Part shown: positions 7,498 through 26,190 of the stretch, piece by piece | How the letters are laid out: each line of letters opens with the position of its first letter | Position numbering within the stretch: position 1 is the stretch's first letter | Assembly (NCBI RefSeq): GCF_020164435.1 | Contig: NZ_JAIUDQ010000002.1 | Coordinates: 1 to 64,000 of the forward strand | DNA: 64,000 bases | Direction of reading: 5' to 3' | Source of the DNA: Phyllobacterium lublinensis | Lineage (GTDB): Bacteria > Pseudomonadota > Alphaproteobacteria > Rhizobiales > Rhizobiaceae | Notes under the pieces: generated by a model | Databases searched by the model: none | What the model was told of the DNA's origin: nothing | Seen by the model: only the letters and a program-made list of their open reading frames with translations | Program-made: the position numbers and the translations under genes

Positions 7498-7857
7498 TTA
7501 GGCGTGAGCGTGGGGATGGTGATAGCCCCAGACCGCCCAGGCCGATATGGCGGCCACAAGAAGCCCAAGAACGACATGCGTCCACATCGCGTTGGTACTG
7601 GCGGCGAAACCGAGCAGCCAGGGGGACGCGATCAGCCAAAGACCAAGTACGAGATTCGCCCATTCCTCCCATTCGGCGAAAGCCGAAATTGCCGCAACCG
7701 CCAGTGCACCGAGCACGATGGCCACGGCCCATGCGTTCCAGGTCGGCGTATCCTCTGACATAAAACCGACGACCCAAGGTGAGATGAACAGGCATACCGC
7801 CAAGGCCAGGTTGAGCCAGTCTTGCGGTTTCTTGCCTTCCATAAGTGCGTTTGCCAT
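7498..7857 (-). CDS. SPW repeat membrane protein
   Basis: A 119-residue four-span membrane protein with two SPW repeats: FISPWVVGF at residues about 24-32 and IASPWLLGF at about 75-83, each followed by a second hydrophobic helix. The C-terminus is His-rich (YHHPHAHA). A perfect AAGGAGG stands before the ATG. The family (Pfam SPW) has no firm function and often appears beside stress or redox genes. It is monocistronic here, and a 15-bp palindrome lies in its promoter region. Confidence 0.88.
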   Translation of the reverse strand: MANALMEGKKPQDWLNLALAVCLFISPWVVGFMSEDTPTWNAWAVAIVLGALAVAAISAFAEWEEWANLVLGLWLIASPWLLGFAASTNAMWTHVVLGLLVAAISAWAVWGYHHPHAHA

Positions 7858-7899
7858 AACAACCTCCTTAGATGAAGCTTAAGCAAAGCATTACTATCC

Positions 7900-7914
7900 G
7901 CGTGCATTGCACGC
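7900..7914. promoter_or_regulatory. 15-bp palindrome upstream of the SPW gene
   Basis: GCGTGCATTGCACGC is a perfect inverted repeat around a single central T, 43 bases upstream of the SPW start codon. The rest of the gap 7858-8117 is AT-rich (for example AATAAAATATT at 7920-7930) and shows no gene. A dimeric regulator site is the simplest reading, but no regulator is identified. Confidence 0.4.
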
Positions 7915-8117
7915 TTAAGAATAAAATATTCCTGTTGCCGGGAGCTTTCAAGAGATTTTCAGCGGTAGAGTCTTAACGTTTTCGAGAGTAAATTCTCCAA
8001 AAGCATGGTTCGAGCGATTTCAACGCACAACCGCAGGATGTTTTACTGGAAATCGCATGTAGTTTTGAATTCTCAATCAAGTAGCTGTTGGTGCTGGCCG
8101 AACTGAAAACTTGCACT

Positions 8118-9341
8118 TCAGGTGGTTGGGCCGGCCGTATGCAGCCAGGCCTCGATTCCCTGCGCCGCCGCCCTTCCGGTCGCGAAGCAGGCTGTAAGCA
8201 GGTAACCTCCGGTAGGGGCTTCCCAATCGAGCATTTCCCCTGCGACGAATATTCCGGGCAGGGCCTTCAGCATGTATCGGTCATCGACACTGTCCCAGGA
8301 AACGCCGCCCGCCGACGAAATGACCTCCGCGATGGGTCGTGGTCTGACGACGGATAGCGGCAATGCCTTGATGCGTTGCGCAAGACGTTCGGTGTCGGCA
8401 ATGTCGGCGGCTTCCGCCAATGTCCGCAACAATGCGGCCTTGACGCCCTCCAGGCCAGCACCCTTGCGAAGGCGATTGGATACACTTGCCTTGGCGTCCT
8501 GCCGTGCAAGATCGCGGGCCAGGCGCGTGGCAGTCCGGCCCGGCGAGAGGTCGAGCAGGAGGGATGCCTTTCCCACCGCTACAAGATCGTTACGCAAACT
8601 TGCGGCGTGGGCATAGACAAGGCTGCCTTCGATCCCCGTGCGCGTGATAACGAATTCGCCTGGGAACGTACCGGCATGGGAAGTTGCTGTTACGGATTTT
8701 ACAGGTTCACCGGCGAAACGCTCCCCGAACGCGTCGGTCCAATCAACGTCGAAGCCGCAATTGGCGGGCTGGAGATCAGCAACCTCTACGCCGGCAGCGC
8801 GCAGTAACTCGAGCCAGGACCCATCGGACCCCAGTCGCGGCCAGCTCCCCCCGCCGAGCGCCAACAAGGCGGCATCAGACTTAACCAACCTTGTTCCTGC
8901 GGGAGTTTCGAAGGAATAGCCGCCATCCTTGAAACCTGTAAAGCGATGGCGCGTCAGGATCCGGACACCTTGAGCCTCGAGTCTGCCGAGCCACGCGCGC
9001 AGGAGCGGAGAGGCCTTCATGACTTTCGGAAATACGCGTCCGGACGAACCCACAAAGGTTTCCGTGCCGAGTGAAGTGGCCCACGCACGAATATCTTCTG
9101 GCGTGAACGCGTCGAGCGCTGGACGCAATTGGCCGGAGGCAGTACCGAACCGTTGCACAAACTGCGAATAATCTTCGCCATGGGTGATGTTCAGGCCGGA
9201 CTTTCCGGCTAGCAGGAACTTGCGGCCAACGGTTGGCATGCTGTCGTAGATCGTTACAGCATGACCGGACAACGACAGGCGCTCGGCTGCCATCAGGCCG
9301 GCGGGGCCGCCGCCAACAATTGCAATCTGTTTTCTGGACAT
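8118..9341 (-). CDS. FAD-dependent oxidoreductase of the HI0933/TIGR03862 group
   Basis: A 407-residue flavoprotein. The N-terminal dinucleotide fold is IAIVGGGPAGLMAAERL, followed by the group-specific VGRKFLLAGKSGLNITH. The C-terminus carries the FAD-binding end motif GIFVAGEMLDWEAPTGGYLL. These features define the YhiN/HI0933-like family, whose reaction is not established, and the length fits. The frame is open 16 codons upstream, but the ATG at 9339-9341 directly precedes the conserved start of the Rossmann strand. It is apparently monocistronic. Confidence 0.85.
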   Translation of the reverse strand: MSRKQIAIVGGGPAGLMAAERLSLSGHAVTIYDSMPTVGRKFLLAGKSGLNITHGEDYSQFVQRFGTASGQLRPALDAFTPEDIRAWATSLGTETFVGSSGRVFPKVMKASPLLRAWLGRLEAQGVRILTRHRFTGFKDGGYSFETPAGTRLVKSDAALLALGGGSWPRLGSDGSWLELLRAAGVEVADLQPANCGFDVDWTDAFGERFAGEPVKSVTATSHAGTFPGEFVITRTGIEGSLVYAHAASLRNDLVAVGKASLLLDLSPGRTATRLARDLARQDAKASVSNRLRKGAGLEGVKAALLRTLAEAADIADTERLAQRIKALPLSVVRPRPIAEVISSAGGVSWDSVDDRYMLKALPGIFVAGEMLDWEAPTGGYLLTACFATGRAAAQGIEAWLHTAGPTT

Positions 9342-13985: not shown

Positions 13986-14867
13986 ATGATTTTGAAGAGT
14001 GTCGCCTCGATTGGACTTGGCGTTTTGGTGGCTTTGGCGGCGACAACGTCGGGTATCGCCCAAACCGTGAAAATTGGCAGCAAGAACTTTACCGAGCAAT
14101 TTGTTGTCGCCGAGATCTACGCTCAGGCTCTGGAAAAAGCAGGCATTACTGTTGAGCGCCGGCTCAATCTCGGGGCAACGCTGATTGCTCATTCTGCTCT
14201 GACGAATGGTGAGATCGATCTATATCCGGAATATACCGGCACTGCGCTGGCTGCCGTGGTGAAGGGCGACCTCTCGGGTTCTGCCGACAAGATCTACAAG
14301 GACGTCAAGGATTATTACGAGAAGAACCTGCAGCTGACACTGCTCGATCCGACGCAAATCAATAATGGCTATGCGATTATCACGCTTCCGGAGACGGCCG
14401 AGAAATACAAGCTCAAGACATTGACGGACCTTGGACCGGCGTCAAAGGAACTATCCTTCGGTGCTGAGGGCGGCTTTGGTGAACGCAAGGACGGTCTTCC
14501 GGGTCTGAAGCAGGTCTATGGCATTGAATTCAAGGATTTCCGCATCTTTGCCAAACTGGGCATCCGCTACAGTGCGCTGACAAGCAAGAACATTGATGTC
14601 TCCTACGGCTTCAGCACCGACTGGCAGATTGCCGACAGCAATCTCGTGGTGCTTGATGACGACAAGCATCTGTTTCCGCCCTACTATCTCGTACCGGTCG
14701 TCCGCCAGGACGCGCTTGCCAAGAATCCGAAGATTGCCGAAGTGCTCAACAAGGTAAGCCCGCTGCTGACGAATGAGATCATGCGTGATCTCAACGCGGC
14801 GGTAGAGCGGGACAAGAAGGAGCCAAAGGAAGTTGCAGAGGAATTCCTGAAGGCCAAGGGAATTTGA
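13986..14867 (+). CDS. Quaternary-amine ABC transporter binding protein (OpuC/OsmF type)
   Basis: A 293-residue periplasmic protein of the OpuAC family. Residues 1-26 are a signal peptide ending in GIAQ. The mature start TVKIGSKNFTEQFVVAEIYA and LYPEYTGTAL are diagnostic of OpuC/OsmF-type binding proteins, which hold trimethylammonium groups in an aromatic cage. Two permeases and an ATPase follow, giving a complete importer. Because the remaining operon genes are catabolic enzymes rather than osmoprotection genes, uptake is probably nutritional. EgtU, an ergothioneine binder, belongs to the same broad class. Confidence 0.92.
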   Translation: MILKSVASIGLGVLVALAATTSGIAQTVKIGSKNFTEQFVVAEIYAQALEKAGITVERRLNLGATLIAHSALTNGEIDLYPEYTGTALAAVVKGDLSGSADKIYKDVKDYYEKNLQLTLLDPTQINNGYAIITLPETAEKYKLKTLTDLGPASKELSFGAEGGFGERKDGLPGLKQVYGIEFKDFRIFAKLGIRYSALTSKNIDVSYGFSTDWQIADSNLVVLDDDKHLFPPYYLVPVVRQDALAKNPKIAEVLNKVSPLLTNEIMRDLNAAVERDKKEPKEVAEEFLKAKGI

Positions 14868-14916
14868 TCGGGTTGCTGTGAACCGCAAAGTTCCGGCGGT
14901 CATTTGAACATCAGCG

Positions 14917-14938
14917 GCGGAGATGATCCCATCTCCGC
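14917..14938 (+). terminator. Intra-operon hairpin after the binding-protein gene
   Basis: A perfect 9-bp stem (14917-14925 with 14930-14938) and 4-nt loop are followed by TGTTTCGTT. Hairpins at this place in ABC operons commonly reduce read-through into the membrane components and protect the abundant binding-protein mRNA. Confidence 0.65.
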
Positions 14939-14967
14939 TGTTTCGTTACTGAGGCAGGACAGCAGGT

Positions 14968-15582
14968 TTGAACTGGGCACCCAAAAACATTCCGGAAATT
15001 CTGACGGCGACCTGGCAGCATCTTGTCCTCTCGGTGTCCTCCGTACTCATCGGGTTGGTGATCGCCTTGATCCTTGGGATCCTGTGTGCCCGCCGGCAGA
15101 GGCTTTATGCTTTCGTCCTGACCATCACAGGCATCATCTTCGTCATACCTAGTCTTGCGTTGTTCGCGCTGCTCATCCCCTGGCTTGGCCTGGGAACCAA
15201 GCCTGCGCTTGTCGGGCTCTCCTCCTATTGCCTGCTCATACTCCTGCGCAATGTCGTTACCGGCCTTCGGGGTGTGCCGTCTGATGTGCTCGGTGCGGCC
15301 GACGGCATGGGCTACAGTGCGTGGCAGCGCCTTGTCCGCATAGAACTGCCGTTGGCTCTGCCGCTCATCGTCTCGGGCGTTCGGATCGCTCTCGTCACGG
15401 TCATCGGCATCGCGACAGTTGCCGCTTTCATCGATGGCGGCGGTCTTGGCACCATCATCCTCATGGGGATCGATCAAAGCTATACGGAGAAAATACTCGT
15501 TGGCGGCATTCTGACGGCGTTGATGGCCACGTTCTTCGATGTGCTCCTCAGCAAAGCTGAAAAACTGCTGGTTCAGGGGTGA
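14968..15582 (+). CDS. Quaternary-amine ABC transporter permease 1
   Basis: A 204-residue permease of the BPD_transp_1 family with about five hydrophobic segments. The EAA-type loop reads DVLGAADGMGYSAWQRLVRI, and VTVIGIATVAAFIDGGGLG is the family C-terminal motif. The start is TTG at 14968, behind GAGGCAGGA. No ATG is available near the conserved N-terminus. It pairs with the second permease at 15590, as in OpuCB/OpuCD. Confidence 0.88.
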   Translation: MNWAPKNIPEILTATWQHLVLSVSSVLIGLVIALILGILCARRQRLYAFVLTITGIIFVIPSLALFALLIPWLGLGTKPALVGLSSYCLLILLRNVVTGLRGVPSDVLGAADGMGYSAWQRLVRIELPLALPLIVSGVRIALVTVIGIATVAAFIDGGGLGTIILMGIDQSYTEKILVGGILTALMATFFDVLLSKAEKLLVQG

Positions 15583-15589
15583 TGACAAT

Positions 15590-16231
15590 ATGCTAGTCAC
15601 CGCATTCACCTGGATCATCAACAACCAGTCCGAGTTCTATGAGGCCCTTGGCCGGCATCTCGTCATGTCGGGAGTATCGTTGGCATTTGCGTTGATGATT
15701 GGATTGCCGCTCGCCGTTCTGATCATCAATCGCGGCGGACTTGCCATGATCGTCATCAATACCATCAACGCACTGCGGACCATTCCCAGCCTGGCGATCT
15801 TGGCCATCATGATGCCGCTGCTTGGCATCGGCCTCTGGCCCTCGATCGTGGCATTGACGGTCCTTGCCCTGCCGCCGATCCTGCTTAATTCCTTTATCGG
15901 CTTGCGCGATGTGGATCCGGATGCAGTCGAGGCAGCGACTGGCATGGGCATGAGTCGCCGACAGATATTGACCAAGATCCGCGTCCCGCTTGCCGCGCCT
16001 GCCATGTTCGCCGGAGCACGCACGGCAGCGGTTCAGGTTCTCGCGGGCGCCACGCTTGCACCTTTCATCGGGGGCGGCGGACTTGGGGACTTCATTGCTG
16101 TCGGAATCAGCATGATGGACATGTCACGCCTGCTCGTCGGTGCCATTCCCATAGCGATACTGGCGCTCGCCACCGAGTTCATTCTCGGCCTCGCCGAGAA
16201 ATACTTCTTTGGAGAAAGAGCCACTGCATGA
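15590..16231 (+). CDS. Quaternary-amine ABC transporter permease 2
   Basis: A 213-residue BPD_transp_1 permease, paralogous to the gene just upstream. Its EAA loop is DAVEAATGMGMSRRQILTKI, and GATLAPFIGGGGLGDFIAVG closes the core. The ATG at 15590 follows CAGGGGTGA, so it is chosen over an open extension upstream that would overlap the previous gene. The stop overlaps the ATPase start (ATGA). Confidence 0.9.
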   Translation: MLVTAFTWIINNQSEFYEALGRHLVMSGVSLAFALMIGLPLAVLIINRGGLAMIVINTINALRTIPSLAILAIMMPLLGIGLWPSIVALTVLALPPILLNSFIGLRDVDPDAVEAATGMGMSRRQILTKIRVPLAAPAMFAGARTAAVQVLAGATLAPFIGGGGLGDFIAVGISMMDMSRLLVGAIPIAILALATEFILGLAEKYFFGERATA

Positions 16232-17160
16232 TTACGATGGAGCATGTCACCAAACGCTATACCGAGGGTGGCGCGGCTTCGGTCGATGACCTGTCGCTCG
16301 TTGTTCCCGAGGGGACGACGACAGCCCTGATCGGACCCTCCGGTTGCGGCAAGACCACGACCATGAGGATGATCAACAGGTTGATCGATCCGACCGAAGG
16401 CAAGATCATCGTCAATGGGGAGGACGTAACCAGGGTTGATCCCGTCAAGCTGCGCCGCCATATCGGTTATGTGATACAGCAAGTCGGCCTTTTCCCGCAC
16501 ATGACAATCGCGCAGAACATTGCGGCGGTGCCGAAACTCCTTGGCTGGACCGAAGCAAAAATCAGGAGCCGCACGGCAGAATTGCTCGACCTTGTCGGCC
16601 TGGATCCCGACGAAATGCTCAGGCGCTATCCCCGGCAACTTTCAGGTGGACAACGCCAGCGGATTGGCGTGGCGCGTGCGCTCGCCGCTGACCCTCCAGT
16701 GTTGTTGATGGATGAACCTTTTGGAGCGATCGATCCGATTGCCCGGACTCGCCTTCAGGACGAATTTCGCCAGATATTGCAGCGCGTGCGCAAGACGGTC
16801 GTGCTCGTCACCCACGACCTGGACGAGGCGATTCGGCTTGGCGATCGTATCGCCATTATGAAAAATGGAAAGATCGTGCAGTATGATACGCCGGACGCCG
16901 TGCTATCCAATCCTGCGGATGCCTTCGTGGAAAATTTTGTCGGCATCGATCGGGCGATCAAGCGGCTCAGCCTTTTCACGGTCAAGGATGTCATGGACAG
17001 CCTTGCGCCGCGTGAGGACAGTGCGAAAGTGACATCGGGCAGCAATCTGCGCGATGCGCTGGCATTGATGGTCGCCGCCAATAGCGACGTTCTCGCCGTC
17101 GTTGACGATGGCGGTTCTGTAAAGGGTCAGTTGACGCGAGACGCAATCTTCTCGGTATGA
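16228..17160 (+). CDS. Quaternary-amine ABC transporter ATPase with CBS remnant
   Basis: A 310-residue ATPase of the OpuCA/ProV type. Walker A is GPSGCGKTT, the signature LSGGQRQRIGVARAL, Walker B VLLMDEPFGAIDP and the switch VTHDLDEA. The last about 65 residues (FTVKDVMDSL to the end) are a single degenerate CBS-type segment, whereas osmosensing OpuA/ProV proteins carry a full tandem pair. That truncation argues against ionic-strength gating and for a nutrient importer. Confidence 0.9.
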   Translation: MITMEHVTKRYTEGGAASVDDLSLVVPEGTTTALIGPSGCGKTTTMRMINRLIDPTEGKIIVNGEDVTRVDPVKLRRHIGYVIQQVGLFPHMTIAQNIAAVPKLLGWTEAKIRSRTAELLDLVGLDPDEMLRRYPRQLSGGQRQRIGVARALAADPPVLLMDEPFGAIDPIARTRLQDEFRQILQRVRKTVVLVTHDLDEAIRLGDRIAIMKNGKIVQYDTPDAVLSNPADAFVENFVGIDRAIKRLSLFTVKDVMDSLAPREDSAKVTSGSNLRDALALMVAANSDVLAVVDDGGSVKGQLTRDAIFSV

Positions 17161-17187
17161 TTTCACTCACATTGGGAGAGCCAAGCA

Positions 17188-17937
17188 ATGTCGATCGCCT
17201 ATCGTTCCTCGGAAGTCCCGGCGGTATTGATTGAACCGACCAGCCGCCGTATTCGCCTCAAGCTCGGTGACCGGTTTATCGCCGACTCCACGCGTGCCAT
17301 CGTCATCTACGAGAATGGAGCCCGCCCGACCTATTATTTGCCGAAGACTGATTTCGTGAGCGGCGCACTGTCCGCTGCGTCAAAAAGCGAACCGGCTCCG
17401 CTTTATGGCACGAAGACATTCTGGTCCCTGCAGTCCGAGGGCACATCCTTGCCCGACAAGGCCTGGAGTTATGATGGAGCAAAGCTTGGCACTCCCGAAC
17501 TGGCCGAATATTTGACGGTCGACTGGCGTTCTGTACGCTGGTTCGAGGAGGATCAGGAAATTTTCGGTCATCCTCGAAATGCCTATCATCGCATTGACAC
17601 CCTGCCGAGTTCGCGGCTTGTTGAGGTCATTGTTGACGGTAAGCCGGTTGCCCATACCAGACGGGCGATCTTCCTGTTCGAAACCGGAATGATTGCCCGG
17701 TATTATTTCCCGGTCGAAGATCTGGTCGCAGGGACGCTTGTTCCAAGCGACTACACGACATATTGCCCCTATAAGGGACCGGCCGCCTATTACCATTTCG
17801 AACTCGACGGCAAGCGCCACGAGAACATCGTCTGGTACTATGTCGAACCATTTCCGGAAGCCAGCAAGATCAAGGGGCTGATCTCATTCTACAATGAGAA
17901 GGTTGACACGATCCGCGTCAACAGTGGCACAGAATAA
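17188..17937 (+). CDS. Tandem DUF427 protein
   Basis: A 249-residue cytosolic protein made of two DUF427 copies. Each contains an RAI[VF]-x-[YF]E[NT]G block (RAIVIYENG at about 31-39 and RAIFLFETG at about 161-169) followed by TYYLPKTDF or RYYFPVEDL. The second copy also has the family ending ENIVWYYVEPFPEA. The function of DUF427 is unknown. Here it is inserted between the importer and two flavin monooxygenases and its TAA overlaps the next ATG by one base, so it is co-translated with them and probably belongs to the same pathway. Confidence 0.88.
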   Translation: MSIAYRSSEVPAVLIEPTSRRIRLKLGDRFIADSTRAIVIYENGARPTYYLPKTDFVSGALSAASKSEPAPLYGTKTFWSLQSEGTSLPDKAWSYDGAKLGTPELAEYLTVDWRSVRWFEEDQEIFGHPRNAYHRIDTLPSSRLVEVIVDGKPVAHTRRAIFLFETGMIARYYFPVEDLVAGTLVPSDYTTYCPYKGPAAYYHFELDGKRHENIVWYYVEPFPEASKIKGLISFYNEKVDTIRVNSGTE

Positions 17938-19010
17938 TGCACCTTGGAATGTCGATCACGCCGTTCGGTCATCACCCTGCAGCATGGCGTACCGGCAGAT
18001 CGGTAGAGGCGATCGGTTTCAATCGCCTCGCGGCACAGGTCGCCAAGGCTCAAGCGGGAAACCTTGCATTCGTGCTGCTCGCAGACCGCTTCGGACAACG
18101 GCCGCTCCATGACTTGTCGCCGGAAGCCGTACCCTTTGAACCGACAACACTTGCAGCTGCACTCGCAACCGCTTCGCGCCAAATCGGCATCATCGCCAGT
18201 GCCGCGACCAGCCAGCACGAGCCGTATAATATTGCCAGGCGCTTTGCGTCGCTGGATGCGATCAGTGCCGGAAGATCCGGCTGGAACCTGGTCGTGTCAG
18301 CAGAGGCCTTGGCGCGGGATAAAGAATACGTCGAAGTGGTCAGCGGGCTTTGGGATAGCTGGGAGGAAGACGCGTTCATCTGCGACAAAGCTGCGGGTCG
18401 CTTCTTCGTCCCGCATAAAATGCACGTGCTTGATCACAGAGGCGAACATTTTACGGTGCGCGGCCCCCTTAACGTCAATCGATCGCCGCAGGGAAAGCCA
18501 GTGATTGCCCACAAGCTGACTCTCCCGACATTTGAGATTGCAGCGCAATATGCCGAAGTGATCTTTATTGATGCGCCATCGCCGGAAAAGGCCAACGGGC
18601 TCGTTGCGGCCTTTGCTCGACGACTTCACCATTATGGCCGCGACAGATCCGATGTGAAAATACTTGCTGATGTCGTCATTTACCCTGGTGCGACGTCTGC
18701 CGGAGCACAGGAATTGCGCGACAGTCTCGATGCGATGGCTGGGCATGTTCAATGGTCAAACGCGCTTCAGCTTGTAGGGGATACGAGGGAAATTGCTGAT
18801 CGCATGCAGCAGTGGACTCAGGCGGGCATCGTTGACGGGTTTACCATTCTGCCATGCCTCGTACCGGAGAGTGTTCATGCGTTGGTCGACCATATCGTTC
18901 CCGAACTGGACAGGCGCGGATTGCTTCAAAGATCTGACGAAGGCTTCACCTTGCGTGATCATCTTGGGTTGCGAAAGCCGCAGCATCCGGCCAGCCAGGT
19001 GGTGGCGTGA
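17937..19010 (+). CDS. FMN-dependent LLM-class monooxygenase, NtaA/DszA type (1)
   Basis: A 357-residue luciferase-like TIM barrel. IGIIASAATSQHEPYNIARRFASLD and the following SAGRSGWNLVVSA are hallmarks of the NtaA/SnaA/DszA/DmoA branch, which use reduced FMN and O2 to cleave C-N or C-S bonds. It is shorter than typical members (about 430-450) and lacks part of the central insertion seen in the downstream paralogue, so the active-site cover differs. No flavin reductase gene is in the operon. It must be supplied from elsewhere. Confidence 0.88.
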   Translation: MHLGMSITPFGHHPAAWRTGRSVEAIGFNRLAAQVAKAQAGNLAFVLLADRFGQRPLHDLSPEAVPFEPTTLAAALATASRQIGIIASAATSQHEPYNIARRFASLDAISAGRSGWNLVVSAEALARDKEYVEVVSGLWDSWEEDAFICDKAAGRFFVPHKMHVLDHRGEHFTVRGPLNVNRSPQGKPVIAHKLTLPTFEIAAQYAEVIFIDAPSPEKANGLVAAFARRLHHYGRDRSDVKILADVVIYPGATSAGAQELRDSLDAMAGHVQWSNALQLVGDTREIADRMQQWTQAGIVDGFTILPCLVPESVHALVDHIVPELDRRGLLQRSDEGFTLRDHLGLRKPQHPASQVVA

Positions 19011-20329
19011 TGAGCGCGGGAAGGTCAATGAAACTTGGTGCTTTCCTGATGGCGGGCGGCCATCATATCGCGGCGTGGCGCCATCCGCTTGCCGTCGCGG
19101 ACGCAGGTGCTGATATTGCTCATTTCATAGCGCTGGCGCAGATCGCCGAAGCTGCGAAATTTGACATGATCTTCATTGAGGACGCGGCGGCCATCCGTGA
19201 GCGTAATGCCAATATTGCGAGCCAGGCGTCCCGCTCGACAATGTTCGAGCCATTGAGCCTGTTGGCAGCGCTTGCCGTGAACACGTCGCATATCGGGCTG
19301 GTAGCAACGGCGTCCACAACCTACAACGAACCCTATGGTCTTGCACGGACTCTGGCCTCCATCGATAACCTGAGCCGCGGTCGCGCCGGCTGGAACCTTG
19401 TAACGTCGGCAAGCGAGCTTGAAGCGGAGAATTTCGTTTCAAGCGGTTTGCGGCCGCATGCACAGCGCTATGAACGGGCGGAAGAGTTTGTCGGGGCGGC
19501 AATCGCAACCTGGGATAGTGTCGATGCCGGTGCGTACGTGGTCGACGGTGGAATCTATGCCGATCCGTCCGGGTTACATCCTGTCGATCATCTAGGGACG
19601 CATTTCACTGTTCATGGGCTTCTTGACAGTCCACGCTCTCCCCAAGGTCGTCCGGTAATGGTTCAGGCTGGAGCATCTGACGCTGGCAAGAATCTCGCGG
19701 CCCGCACTGCCGACGTGGTGTTCACGGCGGCCCAGACCCTGCAAGAGGCGCAGGAATATTACGGCGATCTGAAATCTCGCATGCCCGCCTTTGGTCGCAA
19801 TCCAGATGATCTGAAGATATTGCCTGGCGTATTGCCCATAGTCGGCCGCACCGAGAGCGAGGCTCGGCAAAAGTATGCGGAGTTGCAGGAACTCATACCC
19901 GATGAGGTCGGCGTGGCACTGCTTGCCAGCTATCTCAGCATCAAGGACCTGTCACAATATCCATTGGATGGTCCGTTACCGGCAATGCCGCAGACCGATG
20001 GCATACAGAGTCGCCAGCAGCTGATTATCGATCTCGGGCGTCGTGAAAATCTTTCGATCCGGCAGCTTGCACGCCACTTTGCCGGGTCGCGCGGACACTG
20101 GCAAATCATCGGAACGCCGACTCAGATTGCCGATGAGCTGGAGGAGCGCTTCCGCGCAAAGGCGGCAGACGGGTTCAACATAATGGGTGCATATTTCCCG
20201 GCCGGGCTTGAAGACTTTATCTCCCTCGTCATTCCAGAACTATGCCGCCGCGGGCTCTTTCGGAAGAATTACGAGGGGCGGACACTGCGTGAGAACCTTG
20301 GAATAAAGATACCTGCGCATGGCGCATGA
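19010..20329 (+). CDS. FMN-dependent LLM-class monooxygenase, NtaA/DszA type (2)
   Basis: A full-length member (439 residues) of the same branch: LGAFLMAGGHHIAAWRHP at the N-terminus, FIEDAAAIRE, ASTTYNEPYGLARTLASID and SRGRAGWNLVTSA, and the C-terminal FRAKAADGFNIMGAYFP. The ATG at 19010 overlaps the previous stop (TGATG). An alternative ATG at 19028 follows GGGAAGG and would remove only six residues. Two adjacent paralogues imply either two successive oxidations or two subunits. Confidence 0.9.
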   Translation: MSAGRSMKLGAFLMAGGHHIAAWRHPLAVADAGADIAHFIALAQIAEAAKFDMIFIEDAAAIRERNANIASQASRSTMFEPLSLLAALAVNTSHIGLVATASTTYNEPYGLARTLASIDNLSRGRAGWNLVTSASELEAENFVSSGLRPHAQRYERAEEFVGAAIATWDSVDAGAYVVDGGIYADPSGLHPVDHLGTHFTVHGLLDSPRSPQGRPVMVQAGASDAGKNLAARTADVVFTAAQTLQEAQEYYGDLKSRMPAFGRNPDDLKILPGVLPIVGRTESEARQKYAELQELIPDEVGVALLASYLSIKDLSQYPLDGPLPAMPQTDGIQSRQQLIIDLGRRENLSIRQLARHFAGSRGHWQIIGTPTQIADELEERFRAKAADGFNIMGAYFPAGLEDFISLVIPELCRRGLFRKNYEGRTLRENLGIKIPAHGA

Positions 20330-21345
20330 ATAGAGAGAAAAGCATGCAACCCATCTATATCGATTATCTGAACGCATTGGACATCGATGCATTGGCCCTG
20401 ACCAATGCGGAAATTTTGTCAGCGATCGAAATCTCGCTCGCCGCACAGGGCAATGGTGAAACCGTGATCGAGCCGCGTGTCCACCTTGAACCGGATACAG
20501 CTTTTCATGGTCATTTCAATGTGCTGCGGGGTTACGTTGCCCCTTTGAACCTAGCTGGCGTCAAGATAGTTGGCGACTTTGTCGACAATTACAAGCTGCA
20601 GTATCCATCTGAATTCGGCGTCCTCAACCTGTTTGACCCGCGTACAGGCGTCCCCCGCGCCATTCTGGATGCGACTGTCATAACGGATATGCGCACGGGC
20701 GCAATTACTGCCCTCGGCGCTAAGTATCTTGCTCGCACCGGTTCGAAAATCCTTGGCCACATCGGGGCACGTGGTACCGCCTATTGGAACGTGCGGCTGC
20801 TGGACCATCTATACGATTTCGACGAGATTCGCGTTCATTCGCGGCGGCCGGAAAGCCGGGACGCGTTTGCCGAGAAGCTGTCAAACGATCTCGGCAAGAA
20901 GATTGTCGTAACCAACGACTGGCAAAGCTGTGTGGAGGGTGCCGACATTGTGGTTGAGGCATCGCGCCTGCCGGAACCGTATCCAATGCTGAAGACCGCC
21001 TGGATCAAGCCAGGTGCTTTCGTCGTACCCTACGGAACAATGAGCGCGGTGGAATTGTCATTGACCGATATCATGGACAAGCTCGTGGTGGATGATTGGG
21101 GCCAATGCAAGGGCGGCAAATTTGGCTCGCTAAGGGCGCACGTCGAAGCCGGCAAACTATCCGAACAAACTTTGCACGCCGAGCTTGGCCAAATTGTTGC
21201 GGGTCGCAAGATCGGGCGTGAGACCGATGCCGAGACGATTCTGTTCTGGCATAGAGGTCTGTCGCTGAGCGACATTGCGCTTGGCCACGCCCTGCTCGAA
21301 AAAGCCAAGGCGGCTAACATTGGCCAAAGGTTACGTTTCGCATGA
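20326..21345 (+). CDS. Ornithine cyclodeaminase/mu-crystallin family protein
   Basis: A 339-residue protein of the OCD family, NAD(P)-dependent enzymes that either deaminate ornithine or reduce cyclic or open imines. FNVLRGYVAPLNLAGVKIVG and LLDATVITDMRTGA-like segments (ILDATVITDMRTGAITAL) form the substrate site, and GHIGARGTAYWNV is the nucleotide loop. The start at 20326 overlaps the preceding stop (ATGA). An ATG at 20344 is possible. In this operon a reductive or deaminating step on an imine made by the flavin enzymes is plausible. Confidence 0.87.
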   Translation: MNREKSMQPIYIDYLNALDIDALALTNAEILSAIEISLAAQGNGETVIEPRVHLEPDTAFHGHFNVLRGYVAPLNLAGVKIVGDFVDNYKLQYPSEFGVLNLFDPRTGVPRAILDATVITDMRTGAITALGAKYLARTGSKILGHIGARGTAYWNVRLLDHLYDFDEIRVHSRRPESRDAFAEKLSNDLGKKIVVTNDWQSCVEGADIVVEASRLPEPYPMLKTAWIKPGAFVVPYGTMSAVELSLTDIMDKLVVDDWGQCKGGKFGSLRAHVEAGKLSEQTLHAELGQIVAGRKIGRETDAETILFWHRGLSLSDIALGHALLEKAKAANIGQRLRFA

Positions 21346-22817
21346 GACCGATCATATTCAACGGAACCGGTGTCAAGATTGCCGACATTGCGGCAATTGC
21401 CCGCAAGGATGCACAGGTCGAGGTCGATCCCAATGTCTATGATCGCCTGACGAGAGCCCGCGCGCTTCTCGATCGGGCAGCCGCTTCCGGCCAGAAGATA
21501 TATGGTCTGAACACCGGCCTTGGCGCCAATCTCAAGACGTCGGTCACCACGGATATCAGCATGTTCCAACAGCAGCTGGTCCGCGGACGAAGCGTCGGCG
21601 TTGGGCCATCCTTGCCCCGCGACCTGACCCGGGCGGTGCTGGCTGCGAGGCTATCGATGCTTTCGGTCGGAGGATCGGGGACATCCCCTTCAGTCTTCGA
21701 TGATCTGCTGGCGCTGTTGAACATGAAAGTTCATCCGGTCATTCCGTCAGTGGGCTCGATCGGCGCAGGCGATCTCGTATTGCTGGCATCGGTCGCCCAA
21801 ACGCTGATCGGCGAGGGTAGGGCGGAGTTCCAAGGACAGGTCTATCCGTCTGCGCAGGCGCTTGAAATGGCTGGTCTGGCCCCTTCCAGACTTGGCCCGA
21901 AAGATGGCCTGTCTCTGCTCAATGCCTCGGCGGTATCGGTTGGCCAGGCGGCTTTGGTGGCTGTAGATGCAACCAGCCTCATGGATTTCCAAAGACAGGC
22001 AGCGGCACTCAGCTTCGAGGCTCTTGGCGGCAATCCCCTTATTCTGGCGCCCTCGATCCAGCGTGCCCGGCCTGCCGGCGGGCAGACCGAAGAGGCGCAG
22101 ATACTGTTGGCGCTGCTTGAGGGTTCGTCACTGTTTGATGCCGATCCGGCGATACAGGATCCGCTGAGTCTGCGCTGCGTTGCGCCGATCCACGGCGCGT
22201 TTGTGAATGCATTGAACGCAGCGACGGAGGCCGTCGAGATCGAACTGAATGCTGCGGCGGACAATCCCCTGGTCGTGCTTGAAGAAAATAGGGTGTTGTC
22301 GACAGGTAATTTCCATACGCCGGCATTGGCGCTCGCTTTCGAAGCCATCGGTGTCGCAATAGCACAAATGGCGCTCGCCAGCGCGGCGCGCTTCATCCAG
22401 CTAACGGGTGCGGGCCGGAATGGTTTGCCGCGCTATCTTACCCCGATGGGCGGCGCTTCCGCAGGATTCGTGCCGCTCCAGAAAACCGTCACGGCCCTGA
22501 TTGCGCAAATTCGGCACAAGGCCAATCCGGTTGTGCTCGATTTCCTTCCGGTCTCGGAGGGCGTTGAAGACCACGCGACACAAACACGTCTGGCCGTTGC
22601 GAAGGCGGCCGAGATTGTCGATTCGTGGCGTTATGTGGTCGCTTGCGAACTCTTGGCCGCAGCCCAGGCGATCGATCTCAAACCCGGTCACATCTGTGGC
22701 AGGCGATCGTCACAGACATACCGGTTCGTACGCGAGGCTTCTTCCAAGCTGGCGGAAGACCGCGCCCTCGGAATTGATGTGTCTGAACTGGCTGACCGCC
22801 TTCGCGGTGAAACCTAG
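21342..22817 (+). CDS. Ammonia-lyase homologue lacking the MIO serine
   Basis: A 491-residue member of the histidine/phenylalanine ammonia-lyase superfamily. Conserved residues include Y54 (YGLNTGLG), N194 (LLNASA), the QDPLSLRC block with R278, N308 (DNPLV), F324/H325 and the EDH motif at 409-411. The cofactor-forming segment reads GSIGAGDL (138-145), whereas family members have GSxGASGDL, so the Ser of the Ala-Ser-Gly that cyclises to MIO is absent. A MIO-free lyase of this fold, ergothionase, removes trimethylamine from ergothioneine. The linked quaternary-amine importer supports a trimethylamine-lyase role. The ATG overlaps the upstream stop (ATGA). Confidence 0.88.
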   Translation: MRPIIFNGTGVKIADIAAIARKDAQVEVDPNVYDRLTRARALLDRAAASGQKIYGLNTGLGANLKTSVTTDISMFQQQLVRGRSVGVGPSLPRDLTRAVLAARLSMLSVGGSGTSPSVFDDLLALLNMKVHPVIPSVGSIGAGDLVLLASVAQTLIGEGRAEFQGQVYPSAQALEMAGLAPSRLGPKDGLSLLNASAVSVGQAALVAVDATSLMDFQRQAAALSFEALGGNPLILAPSIQRARPAGGQTEEAQILLALLEGSSLFDADPAIQDPLSLRCVAPIHGAFVNALNAATEAVEIELNAAADNPLVVLEENRVLSTGNFHTPALALAFEAIGVAIAQMALASAARFIQLTGAGRNGLPRYLTPMGGASAGFVPLQKTVTALIAQIRHKANPVVLDFLPVSEGVEDHATQTRLAVAKAAEIVDSWRYVVACELLAAAQAIDLKPGHICGRRSSQTYRFVREASSKLAEDRALGIDVSELADRLRGET

Positions 22818-22862: not shown

Positions 22863-23298
22863 CTGTCGGAGTGGCGTCAATGGCGTCAAGACAAAATGGG
22901 TATGGGTGATACTTTCCAACCGATGCGCTTTCTTGCCCACCAGCCTTCTCCCCTATTTGCTTTAGACTTGTTGCGCCGGCCGAGGGTGGCAGCGGCACGC
23001 GCTGCCGCGAGGGGCCTCTCGCAACCTGCTTAGCTAATTCCGATGGCACTTGGCATGATTAGGATTTGTGCAAAGTAGCCTCCAGGTATTTCAGTGACCA
23101 AAACAAAATCTGAACGAAATTGAGTTTGGCAAGCCGAAGGACTGCCGACGCGGCGGAGGATCGGGCTGAAGCAGTGGCGGTTGGACGATAAGGAAACGCA
23201 ACGCATCGCCGACGTAACCATCGATCAACATGGCCGATCGGCGGCCATTCTCAAACCGAAGGCTGAAGAAAACTATCCCTAAACCAAGAGGAAACACC
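22863..23298. other. Intergenic region without a recognised gene
   Basis: About 435 bases separate the lyase operon from the amidohydrolase array. I see no convincing coding frame and no tRNA-like fold. The AT-richer part around 23040-23130 is the most likely promoter zone for the downstream operon, but no -35/-10 pair stands out. A purine-rich AACCAAGAGGAAAC just before 23299 is the ribosome-binding site of the next gene. Confidence 0.5.
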
Positions 23299-24171
23299 AT
23301 GAGTGAAATCGTCGACATCCACCCGCACATCGTGTCTGCAGATGAAGCACGCTATCCGGTCACGCCGATCGGCGGCAAGCGCTCAGACTGGTCGCATGAG
23401 CGTTCGATCACGCTGGAGCAGCTCATCGAAAGCATGGACGAGGCCGGTGTGGACAAGGCGGCCGTCGTGCATTCCTCAACTACCTATGGCTTTTCCTGCG
23501 AGTATGTCTCGGATTCGGTCCTGCGTCATCCCGATCGGCTGACCGGGGTGTTCTCGGTCAACGTGCTTGAGCCGAGCGCGCCGGCCGACATGAAGAAGTG
23601 GTTCGAGCGCGGCTGCACGGGCATGCGCATTTTTTCGCGCGGCAGTACACTGTCCGGGTCCTGGCTTGCCATCGATGATCCGCGCATCTTCCCCTGCTAC
23701 GAATATGCGTCCGAAAAGGGCATATCCATCGCTTCCAACATCACGGTGGAATTGTTCGACCAGCTGGAAAACGTGCTCAAGCAGTTTCCCAAGGTGAACT
23801 ATGTTCTCGACCACCTCGGCAGGACGGACTTCCATTCCGATGGTGCGCCATTCAAGGCGGCCGAACCCCTGTTTCGCCTAGCCAAATATCCGAACCTTTA
23901 CCTGAAGGTCGCGACCCGCAACTTCTCCGAGGCAAACAACGGCAAGTCGACTTCCGAAACCCTGTTCAAGAAGCTGACGTCGGAATTCGGCGCCAACCGC
24001 ATGGCTTGGGGGTCAAACTATCCGGCATCGGCGGGAACGTTGAAGGAATTGCTTCAGCTGGCGAAGACCGGCCTTTCATCCCTGCCGCAGGCCGACCAGG
24101 ACTGGATTCTCGGCAAGACGGCGCTGCATCTCTATCCGGTGCTCGACAAGAACAAGGCCGCTGCGGCCTGA
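23299..24171 (+). CDS. Amidohydrolase-2 family protein, tandem copy 1
   Basis: A 290-residue TIM-barrel metal hydrolase related to 2-pyrone-4,6-dicarboxylate lactonase (LigI) and other PF04909 members. IVDIHPHIV supplies the first metal histidines, YVLDHLGRTDF the next strand, and MAWGSNYPAS the C-terminal aspartate/asparagine region, where Asn stands in place of the usual WGTDWP Asp. The ATG at 23299 has AAGAGGAAA upstream. The first 147 codons are nearly identical to copy 2 while the rest diverges. Lactone or amide hydrolysis of a polycarboxylate is inferred. Confidence 0.87.
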   Translation: MSEIVDIHPHIVSADEARYPVTPIGGKRSDWSHERSITLEQLIESMDEAGVDKAAVVHSSTTYGFSCEYVSDSVLRHPDRLTGVFSVNVLEPSAPADMKKWFERGCTGMRIFSRGSTLSGSWLAIDDPRIFPCYEYASEKGISIASNITVELFDQLENVLKQFPKVNYVLDHLGRTDFHSDGAPFKAAEPLFRLAKYPNLYLKVATRNFSEANNGKSTSETLFKKLTSEFGANRMAWGSNYPASAGTLKELLQLAKTGLSSLPQADQDWILGKTALHLYPVLDKNKAAAA

Positions 24172-24771
24172 ACTGCTGCGGTATCGTGGATCATTCGAGG
24201 TTGGCCGAGCTCGGGCTTGGTCAGCGTCTCGGATAGCGGACCCAGCCGACACATGACGACCATATGGCGCACTGCCTTGAGTGCGTCCAATCACAAAAGC
24301 GGTTCCGAGAACCGGGCAAGGGAGAGAAGAATGAGTGAAATCGTCGATATCCACCCTCACATCGTGTCTGCAGATGAAGCGCGCTACCCGGTCACGCCGA
24401 TCGGCGGCAAGCGCTCCGACTGGTCGCATGAGCGTTCGATCACGCTGGAGCAACTTATCGAAAGCATGGACGAGGCCGGTGTGGACAAGGCGGCCGTCGT
24501 CCATTCCTCGACCACCTACGGTTTCTCCTGCGAATATGTATCGGATTCGGTCCTGCGTCATCCCGGTCGGCTGACCGGGGTGTTTTCGGTCAACGTGCTT
24601 GAGCCGAGCGCGCCGGCCGACATGAAGAAATGGTTCGAGCGCGGCTGCACGGGCATGCGCATCTTTTCGCGCGGCAGCACGCTGTCCGGTTCCTGGCTTG
24701 CCATTGACGATCCACGCATTTTCCCCTGCTACGAATATGCGGCAGAAAAGGGCATATCCATCGCTTCCAAC
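23299..24771 (+). repeat. Near-identical 441-bp direct repeat (5' halves of copies 1 and 2)
   Basis: Bases 23299-23739 and 24331-24771 align without gaps. Hand counting gives 28 mismatches, almost all at third codon positions, that is about 94 percent identity. Identity ends abruptly after the codons for IASN. The boundaries suggest recent gene conversion, or duplication followed by replacement of the 3' half. Confidence 0.9.
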
Positions 24772-25200
24772 GTGGCCTTCAAGGATTACGACCAGATGGA
24801 GAATGTGCTGAAGCAGTTCCCGAACGTCAAATTCATCACTGACCACATGGGAAACAGCGATTTCAGTGACGGTGCGCCGTTCAAGGCGGCCGAACCCCTG
24901 TTTCGCCTGGCCAAATATCCCAACCTGTTTCTCAAGGTCGTCACGCGCAATTTTCAGCAGTCCAACAATGGCGAGGCAACATCCGCAACGGTGTTCGAGA
25001 AGATCGTTTCGGAATTCGGTGCCAATCGCATGGCCTGGGGCTCCAACTACCCGGCGTCCGCCGGCTCGCTCAAGGACCTTCTTACACTGGCAAGGAAATC
25101 GCTTTCCTCGCTGCCACAGAGCGACCAGGACTGGATCCTCGGCAAGACGGCGCTTCATCTTTATCCGGCTCTGGTCAAGCAGAACGTCGCGGCAGCCTGA
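24331..25200 (+). CDS. Amidohydrolase-2 family protein, tandem copy 2
   Basis: A 289-residue paralogue of the gene upstream. Residues 1-147 differ from copy 1 at only two positions, then the sequence changes sharply (NVAFKDYDQMENVL against NITVELFDQLENVL). FITDHMGNSDFSDG and MAWGSNYPAS keep the fold motifs. The start follows GGGAGAGAAGA. The different C-terminal halves line the substrate pocket in this fold, so the copies may act on related but distinct substrates. Confidence 0.87.
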   Translation: MSEIVDIHPHIVSADEARYPVTPIGGKRSDWSHERSITLEQLIESMDEAGVDKAAVVHSSTTYGFSCEYVSDSVLRHPGRLTGVFSVNVLEPSAPADMKKWFERGCTGMRIFSRGSTLSGSWLAIDDPRIFPCYEYAAEKGISIASNVAFKDYDQMENVLKQFPNVKFITDHMGNSDFSDGAPFKAAEPLFRLAKYPNLFLKVVTRNFQQSNNGEATSATVFEKIVSEFGANRMAWGSNYPASAGSLKDLLTLARKSLSSLPQSDQDWILGKTALHLYPALVKQNVAAA

Positions 25201-25281
25201 CACCGCTCCGGTCAAGCGCGGAGCATATGACAGGAAAATTGAGCGGGCGGCATTCCAATGGGCCCGCAAGCGAGGAAACAG

Positions 25282-26190
25282 ATGAGCGAGATCGTTGATA
25301 TCCACCCGCATATCGTCTCCGATGACGAGAAGCGCTATCCAATCACCCCGATCGGCGGCAAGAGGTCCGACTGGTCGCATGAACGCTCGGTGACGACGGA
25401 AACGCTGCTTCAGTCCATGGCCGAGGCGGGGGTCGACAAGGCTGCTGTCGTTCACTCCTCGACCACATACGGCTTCTCCTGCGAGTATCTGGCAGATGCC
25501 GTGGCGGAGCATCCGGACAAGCTGACGGGGGTGTTTTCGATCAACGTCCTGGCACCTGACGCCGCCGAGACAATGCGGCACTGGTACGAAAAGGGCCTGA
25601 CGGGGATACGCATCTTCACGCGAGGCAGCACGATGAAAGACGCGTGGCTTGCCATCGACGATCCCAGGGTATTTCCCTGCTACGACTATGCCGAACAGAA
25701 CCGCATCCCGGTTGCCGTCAACGTGACGATTGACGTCCTCTCGCAGCTTGAGAATGTGCTGAAGCAGTTTCCAAGGGTCAACTTCATTCTTGACCAGCTC
25801 GGCAAAGCCGATTTCAGCAGCGGAGCGCCCTATGAGCCTGTCCAGCCGCTGTTCGACCTTGCGAAATATCCCAATCTTTATCTGAAGCTCAAGAGCGCTG
25901 CCTTCTCTGAGGCGAAGAAGGGCAACTCCACGCCAGAAGCGATGTTCGGCAGGCTCGTGGCCGAATTTGGTGCCAATCGCCTGGCCTGGGGTTCGAACTA
26001 TCCGGCATCCAACGGCTCGTTGAAGGACCTCCTGGACCGGGCAAGGCAGGGCCTCTCTTCGCTTTCAGGGAGCGATCAGGATTGGATCCTCGGCAAGACC
26101 GCCCTTCATCTCTACCCGGCTCTCGACCGCGCACTGCCGCGGTCTGAGACCGCCCAGCGGCCAGCATTCGTTGCAAAGGGAGGTCGCTGA
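25282..26190 (+). CDS. Amidohydrolase-2 family protein, tandem copy 3
   Basis: A 302-residue third paralogue, with the same IVDIHPHIV and GGKRSDWSHERS N-terminus but about 70-75 percent identical overall by eye, so older than the copy 1/copy 2 split. FILDQLGKADF replaces the DH(L/M)G histidine with Gln (DQLG), which touches a usual metal or base position. LAWGSNYPAS is retained. The start follows GCGAGGAAACAG. It precedes the CapA-like gene by one base, so all belong to one operon. Confidence 0.86.
   Translation: MSEIVDIHPHIVSDDEKRYPITPIGGKRSDWSHERSVTTETLLQSMAEAGVDKAAVVHSSTTYGFSCEYLADAVAEHPDKLTGVFSINVLAPDAAETMRHWYEKGLTGIRIFTRGSTMKDAWLAIDDPRVFPCYDYAEQNRIPVAVNVTIDVLSQLENVLKQFPRVNFILDQLGKADFSSGAPYEPVQPLFDLAKYPNLYLKLKSAAFSEAKKGNSTPEAMFGRLVAEFGANRLAWGSNYPASNGSLKDLLDRARQGLSSLSGSDQDWILGKTALHLYPALDRALPRSETAQRPAFVAKGGR

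Follow-up and report, generated by a model that had tools for sequence, protein, structure and literature searches.

The antioxidant ergothioneine is a product of fungi and actinomycetes; how it is removed is poorly mapped. Ergothionase, which eliminates trimethylamine, also takes ergothioneine sulfonic acid. One catabolic route reportedly starts with a trimethylamine-lyase, proceeds through a thiourocanate hydratase and a thiohydantoin desulfurase, and delivers glutamate at its end; another is said to couple a trimethylamine-lyase to reductive desulfonation, yielding urocanate. In print, a five-step ergothioneine catabolism (Beliaeva, Leisinger, Seebeck 2021) appears as a reference in PMC9732360, and an ergothioneine-sulfonate catabolic pathway (Yan, Huang, Zhang, ACS Catal 2022;12:4825) is cited in PMC13405746 with regard to Agrobacterium radiobacter. 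For uptake, PMC9732360 describes Gly244, Phe293 and Glu375 of EgtU as important for ergothioneine binding. Among luciferase-like monooxygenases (LLMs) that use flavin mononucleotide (FMN), PMC8027225 reports the heterodimer NtfO1–NtfO2 (7E36), in which O1 lacks the lid and O1 sequences diverge faster. Here we analyzed a 64,000-nucleotide stretch of the soil bacterium Phyllobacterium lublinensis (the window) that carries, at 13986–22817, a nine-gene operon encoding an OpuC-type importer, a DUF427 protein, two luciferase-like proteins (LLM1 and LLM2), an ornithine cyclodeaminase (OCD)/mu-crystallin-family protein and a lyase without the serine of the 4-methylideneimidazole-5-one (MIO) cofactor.

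We read the operon as a unit that would take up a histidine-type betaine of the ergothioneine family and degrade it oxidatively, and put the probability of this reading at roughly 0.47. In the first step, the OpuC-type transporter would import a carboxylated trimethylammonium compound. LLM1–LLM2, dependent on FMNH2 and with LLM2 as the catalytic subunit, would then oxygenate the substrate, most likely converting the thione sulfur to a sulfinate or sulfonate. The MIO-less lyase would next eliminate trimethylamine as ergothionase does, by means of two conserved residues, Lys381 and Glu409, while Arg83 would hold the oxidized (anionic) sulfur substituent. In the fourth step, OCD would move a hydride from NAD(P)H to the electrophilic ring carbon C2 and expel sulfite, leaving urocanate, which would finally enter the ordinary Hut pathway. 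Gene content, conservation, linked pairs, loss of the MIO serine, residue changes and the presence of Hut genes can be read in the DNA itself; we infer the substrate, each of the catalytic steps and their order. Taken as a set, the signs of a trimethylammonium group, of an imidazole (Hut) and of sulfur (YeiH) suggest an oxidized form of ergothioneine. Arg83 would suit a C2 sulfonate, and an imine-reductase fold agrees with hydride addition at C2 and release of sulfite, with urocanate as the predicted product.

The operon is real and conserved, and more than a chance assembly. All nine open reading frames (ORFs) lie on the + strand. As the original prediction held, the ORF list places them in one direction with tight junctions from permease 2 (15590) onward: a 4-base overlap, a 27-base gap and then overlaps of 1, 4, 4 and 4 bases up to the lyase. 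The binding protein and permease 1 are separated by a 100-base gap. The predicted families likewise agreed with our assignments by Pfam and NCBIfam. A lyase orthologue (65–81% identity) was found in 18 of 19 other Phyllobacterium genomes examined, and the binding protein, both permeases, the ATPase, LLM1, LLM2, OCD and the lyase occur in identical order in 18/18 Phyllobacterium loci fetched, with overlaps from LLM1 onward mostly of 1–7 bases; absence of such conserved order had been named in advance as grounds for abandoning the proposal. Ratios of nonsynonymous to synonymous substitution (dN/dS) against the nearest relative (L022) were 0.013–0.135 across the nine genes. The protein with two DUF427 stretches (17188–17937, +; PF04248) had been counted as part of the gene set, and here the prediction did not hold: its gene is present in only 9 of the 18 Phyllobacterium loci and absent from 15 of 30 otherwise complete operons, so that it is an optional, non-core component.

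A scan of genome contigs gave at least 505 relatives, of which the best 80 loci (L060–L139) were kept. The first 32 (L060–L091), from Phyllobacterium, Rhizobium and close kin, comprised 15 whole sets with DUF427 (15/30 complete operons), 15 whole sets without it, one set from permease 2 onward that is cut by a contig end (L076), and one locus with OCD–lyase alone (L084). The other 48 (L092–L139), nearly all from Mesorhizobium, carried OCD followed by the lyase in every case, and no binding-protein or LLM genes were found in their stretches. Throughout these best 80 loci, OCD precedes the lyase and the aligned genes are no more than 27 bases apart (80/80). In Mesorhizobium ciceri WSM1271 (L111, 8998–10001), OCD is split into two adjoining frames and may be interrupted.

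Co-occurrence was then assessed in 297 genomes of the family, with cut-offs of E ≤ 1e-150 for LLM2 and E ≤ 1e-100 for the lyase. LLM2 relatives were present in 30 of the 297 and the lyase in 25, with both in 18, against 2.5 expected if they were independent. Thirteen stretches were fetched from 12 of the 30 LLM2 genomes; LLM1 and LLM2 were paired in 12 of them, the thirteenth (L182) being a separate lyase locus of genome G797. In one arrangement (L170), importer, LLM1, LLM2, OCD and lyase stand in line. In others, importer–LLM1–LLM2 diverges from OCD–lyase (L171), runs towards it (L175, L181) or occurs without it (L180). OCD, lyase, LLM1 and LLM2 stand in line in L172 and L173, whose stretches lack an OpuC importer; a YeiH-type gene lies ~4 kb away in L173. 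The order OCD, lyase, LLM1, LLM2 recurs in L174 with the importer divergent. Four genomes have the LLM pair and the OCD–lyase pair at separate places: in L176–L179, from four genomes of one genus (taken as Mesorhizobium), LLM1–LLM2 adjoins a LysR-type gene with no importer beside the pair, and OCD–lyase lies elsewhere (L044–L047). OCD–lyase and LLM1–LLM2 are two stable pairs, which can be found separately though for the most part within the same genomes; the importer accompanies the LLM pair in part of the loci. That the pairs remain linked across many arrangements is the strongest evidence for a shared pathway, but does not fix the sequence of its steps. In four of the 12 LLM stretches (L171, L175, L180 and L181), the importer is in line with LLM1–LLM2 and not with OCD–lyase, which would place oxygenation upstream.

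LLM2 (19007–20329, +) belongs to the NtaA/DszA family of FMN monooxygenases (Bac_luciferase; TIGR03860, 531.8 bits) and matched 7e36_B best in the PDB (E = 1.1e-110), with 3sdo and 5dqp also among its matches. LLM1 (17937–19010, +; Bac_luciferase/TIGR03860) is a shortened luciferase-like subunit whose PDB matches include both 7e36 chains, among others. Of the eight FMN residues reported for NtfO2, LLM2 keeps seven in 19/19 sequences, with Glu replacing Ala58, and LLM1 lacks Thr133, His151 and Tyr155 in 19/19. A stretch of ~55 residues, taken as the lid, is absent from the LLM1s in the printed alignment, and mean identity of 18 relatives to the window protein was 83% for LLM2 and 59% for LLM1. 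The better reading of these residue patterns is a heterodimeric FMN monooxygenase with just one active site, in which LLM2 would be the catalytic subunit and LLM1 its non-catalytic partner; the two separate monooxygenases originally proposed were rejected on the residue table. That this heterodimer is a dedicated ergothioneine S-oxygenase, converting the highly stable thione to a sulfinate or sulfonate so that rhizobia would burn ergothioneine itself with the help of a trimethylamine-lyase of the Arg83 type and a reductive desulfonase of the OCD fold, is possible though doubtful.

Alternatively, the heterodimer might act on released trimethylamine by an NtaA-like oxidative N-demethylation, leaving the sulfur alone, while lyase and OCD take imported ergothioneine sulfonate. 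NtaA, which acts on nitrilotriacetate, and relatives of ethylenediaminetetraacetate (EDTA) monooxygenase cleave tertiary-amine C–N bonds, and the presence of 3sdo and 5dqp among the LLM2 matches counts in the same direction. Position 58, a flavin contact, is Glu in all operon-borne LLM2s examined and Ala in the neighbouring LLM2 paralogues of L034/L067/L072 and L085 as in NtfO2; an invariant Glu there would suit a cation. LLM1–LLM2 also follows OCD–lyase on one strand in L172–L174. The four loci in which the importer is in line with the LLM pair and not with OCD–lyase argue the other way, and MttB-family genes in the own genome and in L050 represent another methylamine route. On balance, we consider demethylation of trimethylamine rather unlikely.

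The lyase (21342–22817, +; PF00221, Lyase_aromatic) matched ergothionase best in the PDB (6s7j, 278 bits), with histidine ammonia-lyases (HALs) reaching at most 255 bits. Its MIO serine is absent (SIGA-GD, with a gap at HAL Ser143), and it scored 379 against the NCBIfam hutH equivalog cut-off of 539. Among the HAL positions compared (Tyr53, His83, Tyr280, Arg283 and Glu414), His83 lies on the ring side and Glu414 on the imidazole side of the substrate. The window lyase has Leu at Tyr280, as in ergothionase, and keeps the equivalents of Glu414 and Arg283 together with ergothionase Lys383, which is presumably catalytic. Arg occupies the HAL His83 position in the window lyase and in 60 of 70 aligned rows, in a residue table that takes six of the 48 loci L092–L139 and none of L022–L039. 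In all 60 Arg83 rows the MIO serine is missing, and Lys383, Glu414, Arg283 and Tyr53 are retained; at the Lys63 position they carry Leu (as in the window), Val, Ile, Ala or Ser. The His83/Lys63 pair was restricted, within the fully read MIO-less rows, to Treponema denticola ergothionase (ERG_Td), L141 and L152. A maximum-likelihood tree of 36 rows chosen by hand separated ergothionases (support 100/100), MIO lyases (100/100) and the Arg83 group (27 rows, 98/94). A structure model was poor (mean pLDDT 68.6, from 5 sequences) and was not used. The window lyase was classed neither as an ergothionase, given its separate clade and replaced His83/Lys63 pair, nor as a HAL, given the absent MIO Ala-Ser-Gly and, again, the separate clade. 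Database records label lyases of the Arg83 clade as histidine ammonia-lyase or hutH. These features suggest that it likely works like ergothionase while standing outside the ergothionase clade, as a predicted trimethylamine-lyase of a third, Arg83 clade.

OCD (20326–21345, +; PF02423, OCD_Mu_crystall) is an NAD(P)-dependent family member and the predicted reductive desulfonase. The neighbourhoods of OCD and lyase in other genomes carry signs of sulfur, imidazole and quaternary-amine metabolism. YeiH is a sulfite exporter, and YeiH-type genes lie in R. johnstonii pRL12 (L140: YeiH-type exporter, coenzyme A (CoA) transferase, short-chain dehydrogenase/reductase (SDR), MaoC, HutC, lyase, substrate-binding protein (SBP), OCD, PhnD/SsuA-like protein, transporter), in Polaromonas (L141: YeiH, lyase and OCD together), in L050 (MttB, lyase, Opp transporter, OCD, YeiH), and in the L051, L052 and L151 clusters. 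MttB adjoins the lyase in L050 and L055. On the imidazole side, Rhizobium sp. NFR07 (L085, one of the 32 loci) has a urocanase directly upstream of the whole operon, 87% identical to the HutU of P. lublinensis; L149 combines urocanase, BCCT, HutI, HutG, lyase, SBP, OCD and a transporter, L152 has OCD, urocanase and an ergothionase-clade lyase, and in L143 OCD lies inside a hut operon. P. lublinensis itself has a HutC/F/I/H/G/U cluster ~225 kb away on the same contig, and no EgtD match was found in its genome (88% complete); such a genome would consume, rather than make, compounds of this kind.

Further genes were noted in these clusters. A PhnD/SsuA-family protein of ~270 residues with no recognisable signal peptide, perhaps intracellular, follows OCD or lyase in many of them (for example L140 10020–10838, L142 12498–13310, L143 10034–10840 and L147 9816–10619); it was not matched beside the operon in Phyllobacterium loci L060–L074 and L088. 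Its identification as a DszB-like desulfinase was rejected, as its PDB matches (E ≤ 0.1) were solely AioX-like and ArrX chains; the own genome gave a weak match. Between Opp transporter and OCD, L055 holds a mandelate-racemase/enolase-superfamily protein (7736–9016) that may be a betaine epimerase, and genes of L040 were read as Rieske, dimethylglycine dehydrogenase (DMGDH) and glycine-cleavage genes from translations alone. The own genome has a second quaternary-amine locus (L167, C1:108500–128400) with two MttB-family, DMGDH-like, desaturase-like, PhnD/SsuA-like and OpuC-type genes, which resembles L050.

The importer comprises an OpuAC-family SBP with EgtU-like sequence (13986–14867, +; PF04069), two OpuC-type permeases (14968–15582 and 15590–16231, both +; PF00528) and a ProV/OpuCA-type ATPase (16228–17160, +; TIGR01186, 349.9 bits against a cut-off of 326.6). 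Permease 1 has a TTG start in the ORF list and is present in 18/18 Phyllobacterium loci; permease 2 is listed from 15539, and the next ATG, at 15590, is the likely true start and removes the overlap. The ATPase has at most one degenerate CBS domain (21.4 bits, below the Pfam cut-off of 24), in line with the original remark that it lacks a full CBS pair. The first PDB matches of the SBP are engineered sensors, followed by 8dp6, Lmo1422 and SpEgtUC; 8dp6, titled ‘Osmoprotection protein’, is one we take to be H. pylori EgtU. Read by motif register rather than by residue-by-residue alignment to SpEgtUC, the SBP keeps the quaternary-ammonium cage, the Asn base and the Lys/Thr/Arg carboxylate contacts (K33, Y83, T86, N127, Y129, R167, F209, Y234), and has Phe, Tyr and Gly at EgtU Gly244, Phe293 and Glu375. 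The Glu375 position is Gly in 39/39 SBP rows from LLM operons (three loci listed twice), Thr in five and Gly in one of six further LLM-linked SBPs, and Glu in four loci without LLM genes (L140, L052, L149, L151). Judged by these residues, the SBP would bind a carboxylated quaternary ammonium compound, though not in the EgtU way, and identity of the SBP with EgtU was rejected because the three determinants are not kept.

The loss of EgtU sulfur contacts from the SBP, together with the loss of ergothionase Lys63 from the lyase, could instead indicate a sulfur-free substrate, hercynine (histidine betaine), which the lyase would convert directly to urocanate while LLM and OCD do something else. 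L149 fits such a route: its lyase stands with urocanase, HutI, HutG and BCCT, and no gene for desulfurisation was recognised there. However, YeiH-type exporters stand in several lyase–OCD clusters, it is hard to see what Arg83 (60/60 group rows) would do with a bare imidazole, and OCD would be left without a reaction, so hercynine appears decidedly unlikely. The substrate might also be another aromatic amino-acid betaine, such as hypaphorine or tyrosine betaine, with its acrylate product passing to CoA-dependent beta-oxidation. The CoA transferase, SDR and MaoC genes before the lyase in R. johnstonii L140 would agree with this, and the small residue at the SBP Glu375 position in LLM operons would leave room for a larger ring. 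In contrast, the imidazole-side Glu414 is kept in 60/60 Arg83 rows, urocanase, HutI and HutG occur as neighbours, and no CoA transferase or MaoC match was found in stretches L060–L091 (E ≤ 1e-15), which makes larger aromatic betaines very improbable. An osmoprotectant importer lying by chance next to unrelated oxidoreductases is hardly credible and was set aside: the OpuC class and the similarity of the SBP to glycine betaine, choline and carnitine binders are met by the order and overlaps kept in 18/18 Phyllobacterium loci and in Rhizobium, by the single sub-threshold CBS domain, and by an importer in line with the LLM pair in rearranged loci elsewhere (L170, L171, L175, L180, L181).

Several observations weigh against catabolism of an ergothioneine-family betaine by the oxidative route. 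The co-occurrence p value (hypergeometric, 1e-15) is inflated by kinship of the genomes. Twelve of the 30 LLM2 genomes are without the lyase at the cut-off (in one, G894, it lies just below, at L181), seven of the 25 lyase genomes are without LLM2, and LLM2 matches at 55–58% may include paralogues. The arrangements in L172–L174 and L176–L179 weaken the argument for step order. Measured as plain identity, the lyase resembles P. putida HAL (33%) as much as ergothionase (32%). Within the operon, we recognised no gene for a flavin reductase, a sulfite exporter or a sulfite oxidase. OCD adjoins an MIO-containing HutH in L143, L147 and L150, which the proposed pathway leaves unexplained; among 18 other order-level genomes with OCD, 13 have the lyase in the stretch and five do not. 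Finally, since Gly244, Phe293 and Glu375 are not kept, ergothioneine binding of the EgtU kind by the SBP is unlikely.

The segment 13986–22817 bounds the unit well, as the flanking genes are rarely shared: three tandem, similar Amidohydro_2 (PF04909) genes downstream (23230–26190) had counterparts in 0/18 Phyllobacterium stretches, and a permease and an SDR gene upstream in 2/18. Scans for promoters and terminators returned no more than shuffled sequence did, and the RNA fold downstream of the lyase had a z of −1.76.

Taken together, the original proposal is supported in part. A trimethylammonium substrate is supported by the kept aromatic cage of the SBP and by MttB and BCCT beside relatives, a lyase of the ergothionase kind by the best PDB score and the missing MIO serine, and sulfur chemistry by the YeiH-type exporters. 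For an ergothioneine-related substrate, lyase, YeiH and Hut context speak in favour, and the SBP without EgtU specificity residues does not. If the oxidative route is true, it would give root-associated bacteria a further, oxidative entry into ergothioneine catabolism, extend the MIO-less lyases by a third clade, and reveal an OCD-fold enzyme able to cleave a carbon–sulfur bond by hydride transfer; a group of genes now labelled hutH or ‘ornithine cyclodeaminase’ could then be re-annotated.

Compared with known systems, LLM1–LLM2 resembles the heterodimeric LLM hydroxylases NtfO1–NtfO2 and StmO1–StmO2 in its shortened, faster-evolving O1 and FMN-binding O2; those act in a polyketide pathway, and NtfO2 has Ala58 where LLM2 has Glu58. 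The lyase shares with ergothionase (Treponema denticola 6s7j/6s7q; Burkholderia sp. HME13) its family, the missing MIO serine, Leu for Tyr280, the Glu414/Arg283 equivalents and Lys383, but differs in its separate clade (98/94 support), in His83→Arg and Lys63→Leu, in an identity of 32%, and in its OCD and LLM neighbours. The importer is related to the EgtU ergothioneine ABC transporter through a binding protein with an aromatic cage, and differs in lacking Gly244/Phe293/Glu375 and in having a separate SBP, two permeases and an ATPase; cage and carboxylate contacts liken its SBP to quaternary-ammonium binders of the OpuC/ProX kind. The five-step ergothioneine catabolism reportedly shares the trimethylamine-lyase start, and differs in its thiourocanate hydratase and thiohydantoin desulfurase, for which no gene was recognised in the window operon. 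The OCD–lyase half, with its predicted elimination and desulfonation steps, is probably shared with the ergothioneine-sulfonate pathway said to operate in Agrobacterium radiobacter; the original statement that no characterised pathway has this gene set is doubtful for that half, and ‘undescribed’ may hold for the LLM pair alone. The candidate difference from that pathway is the LLM1–LLM2 heterodimer together with the importer, the part of the operon that may be new.

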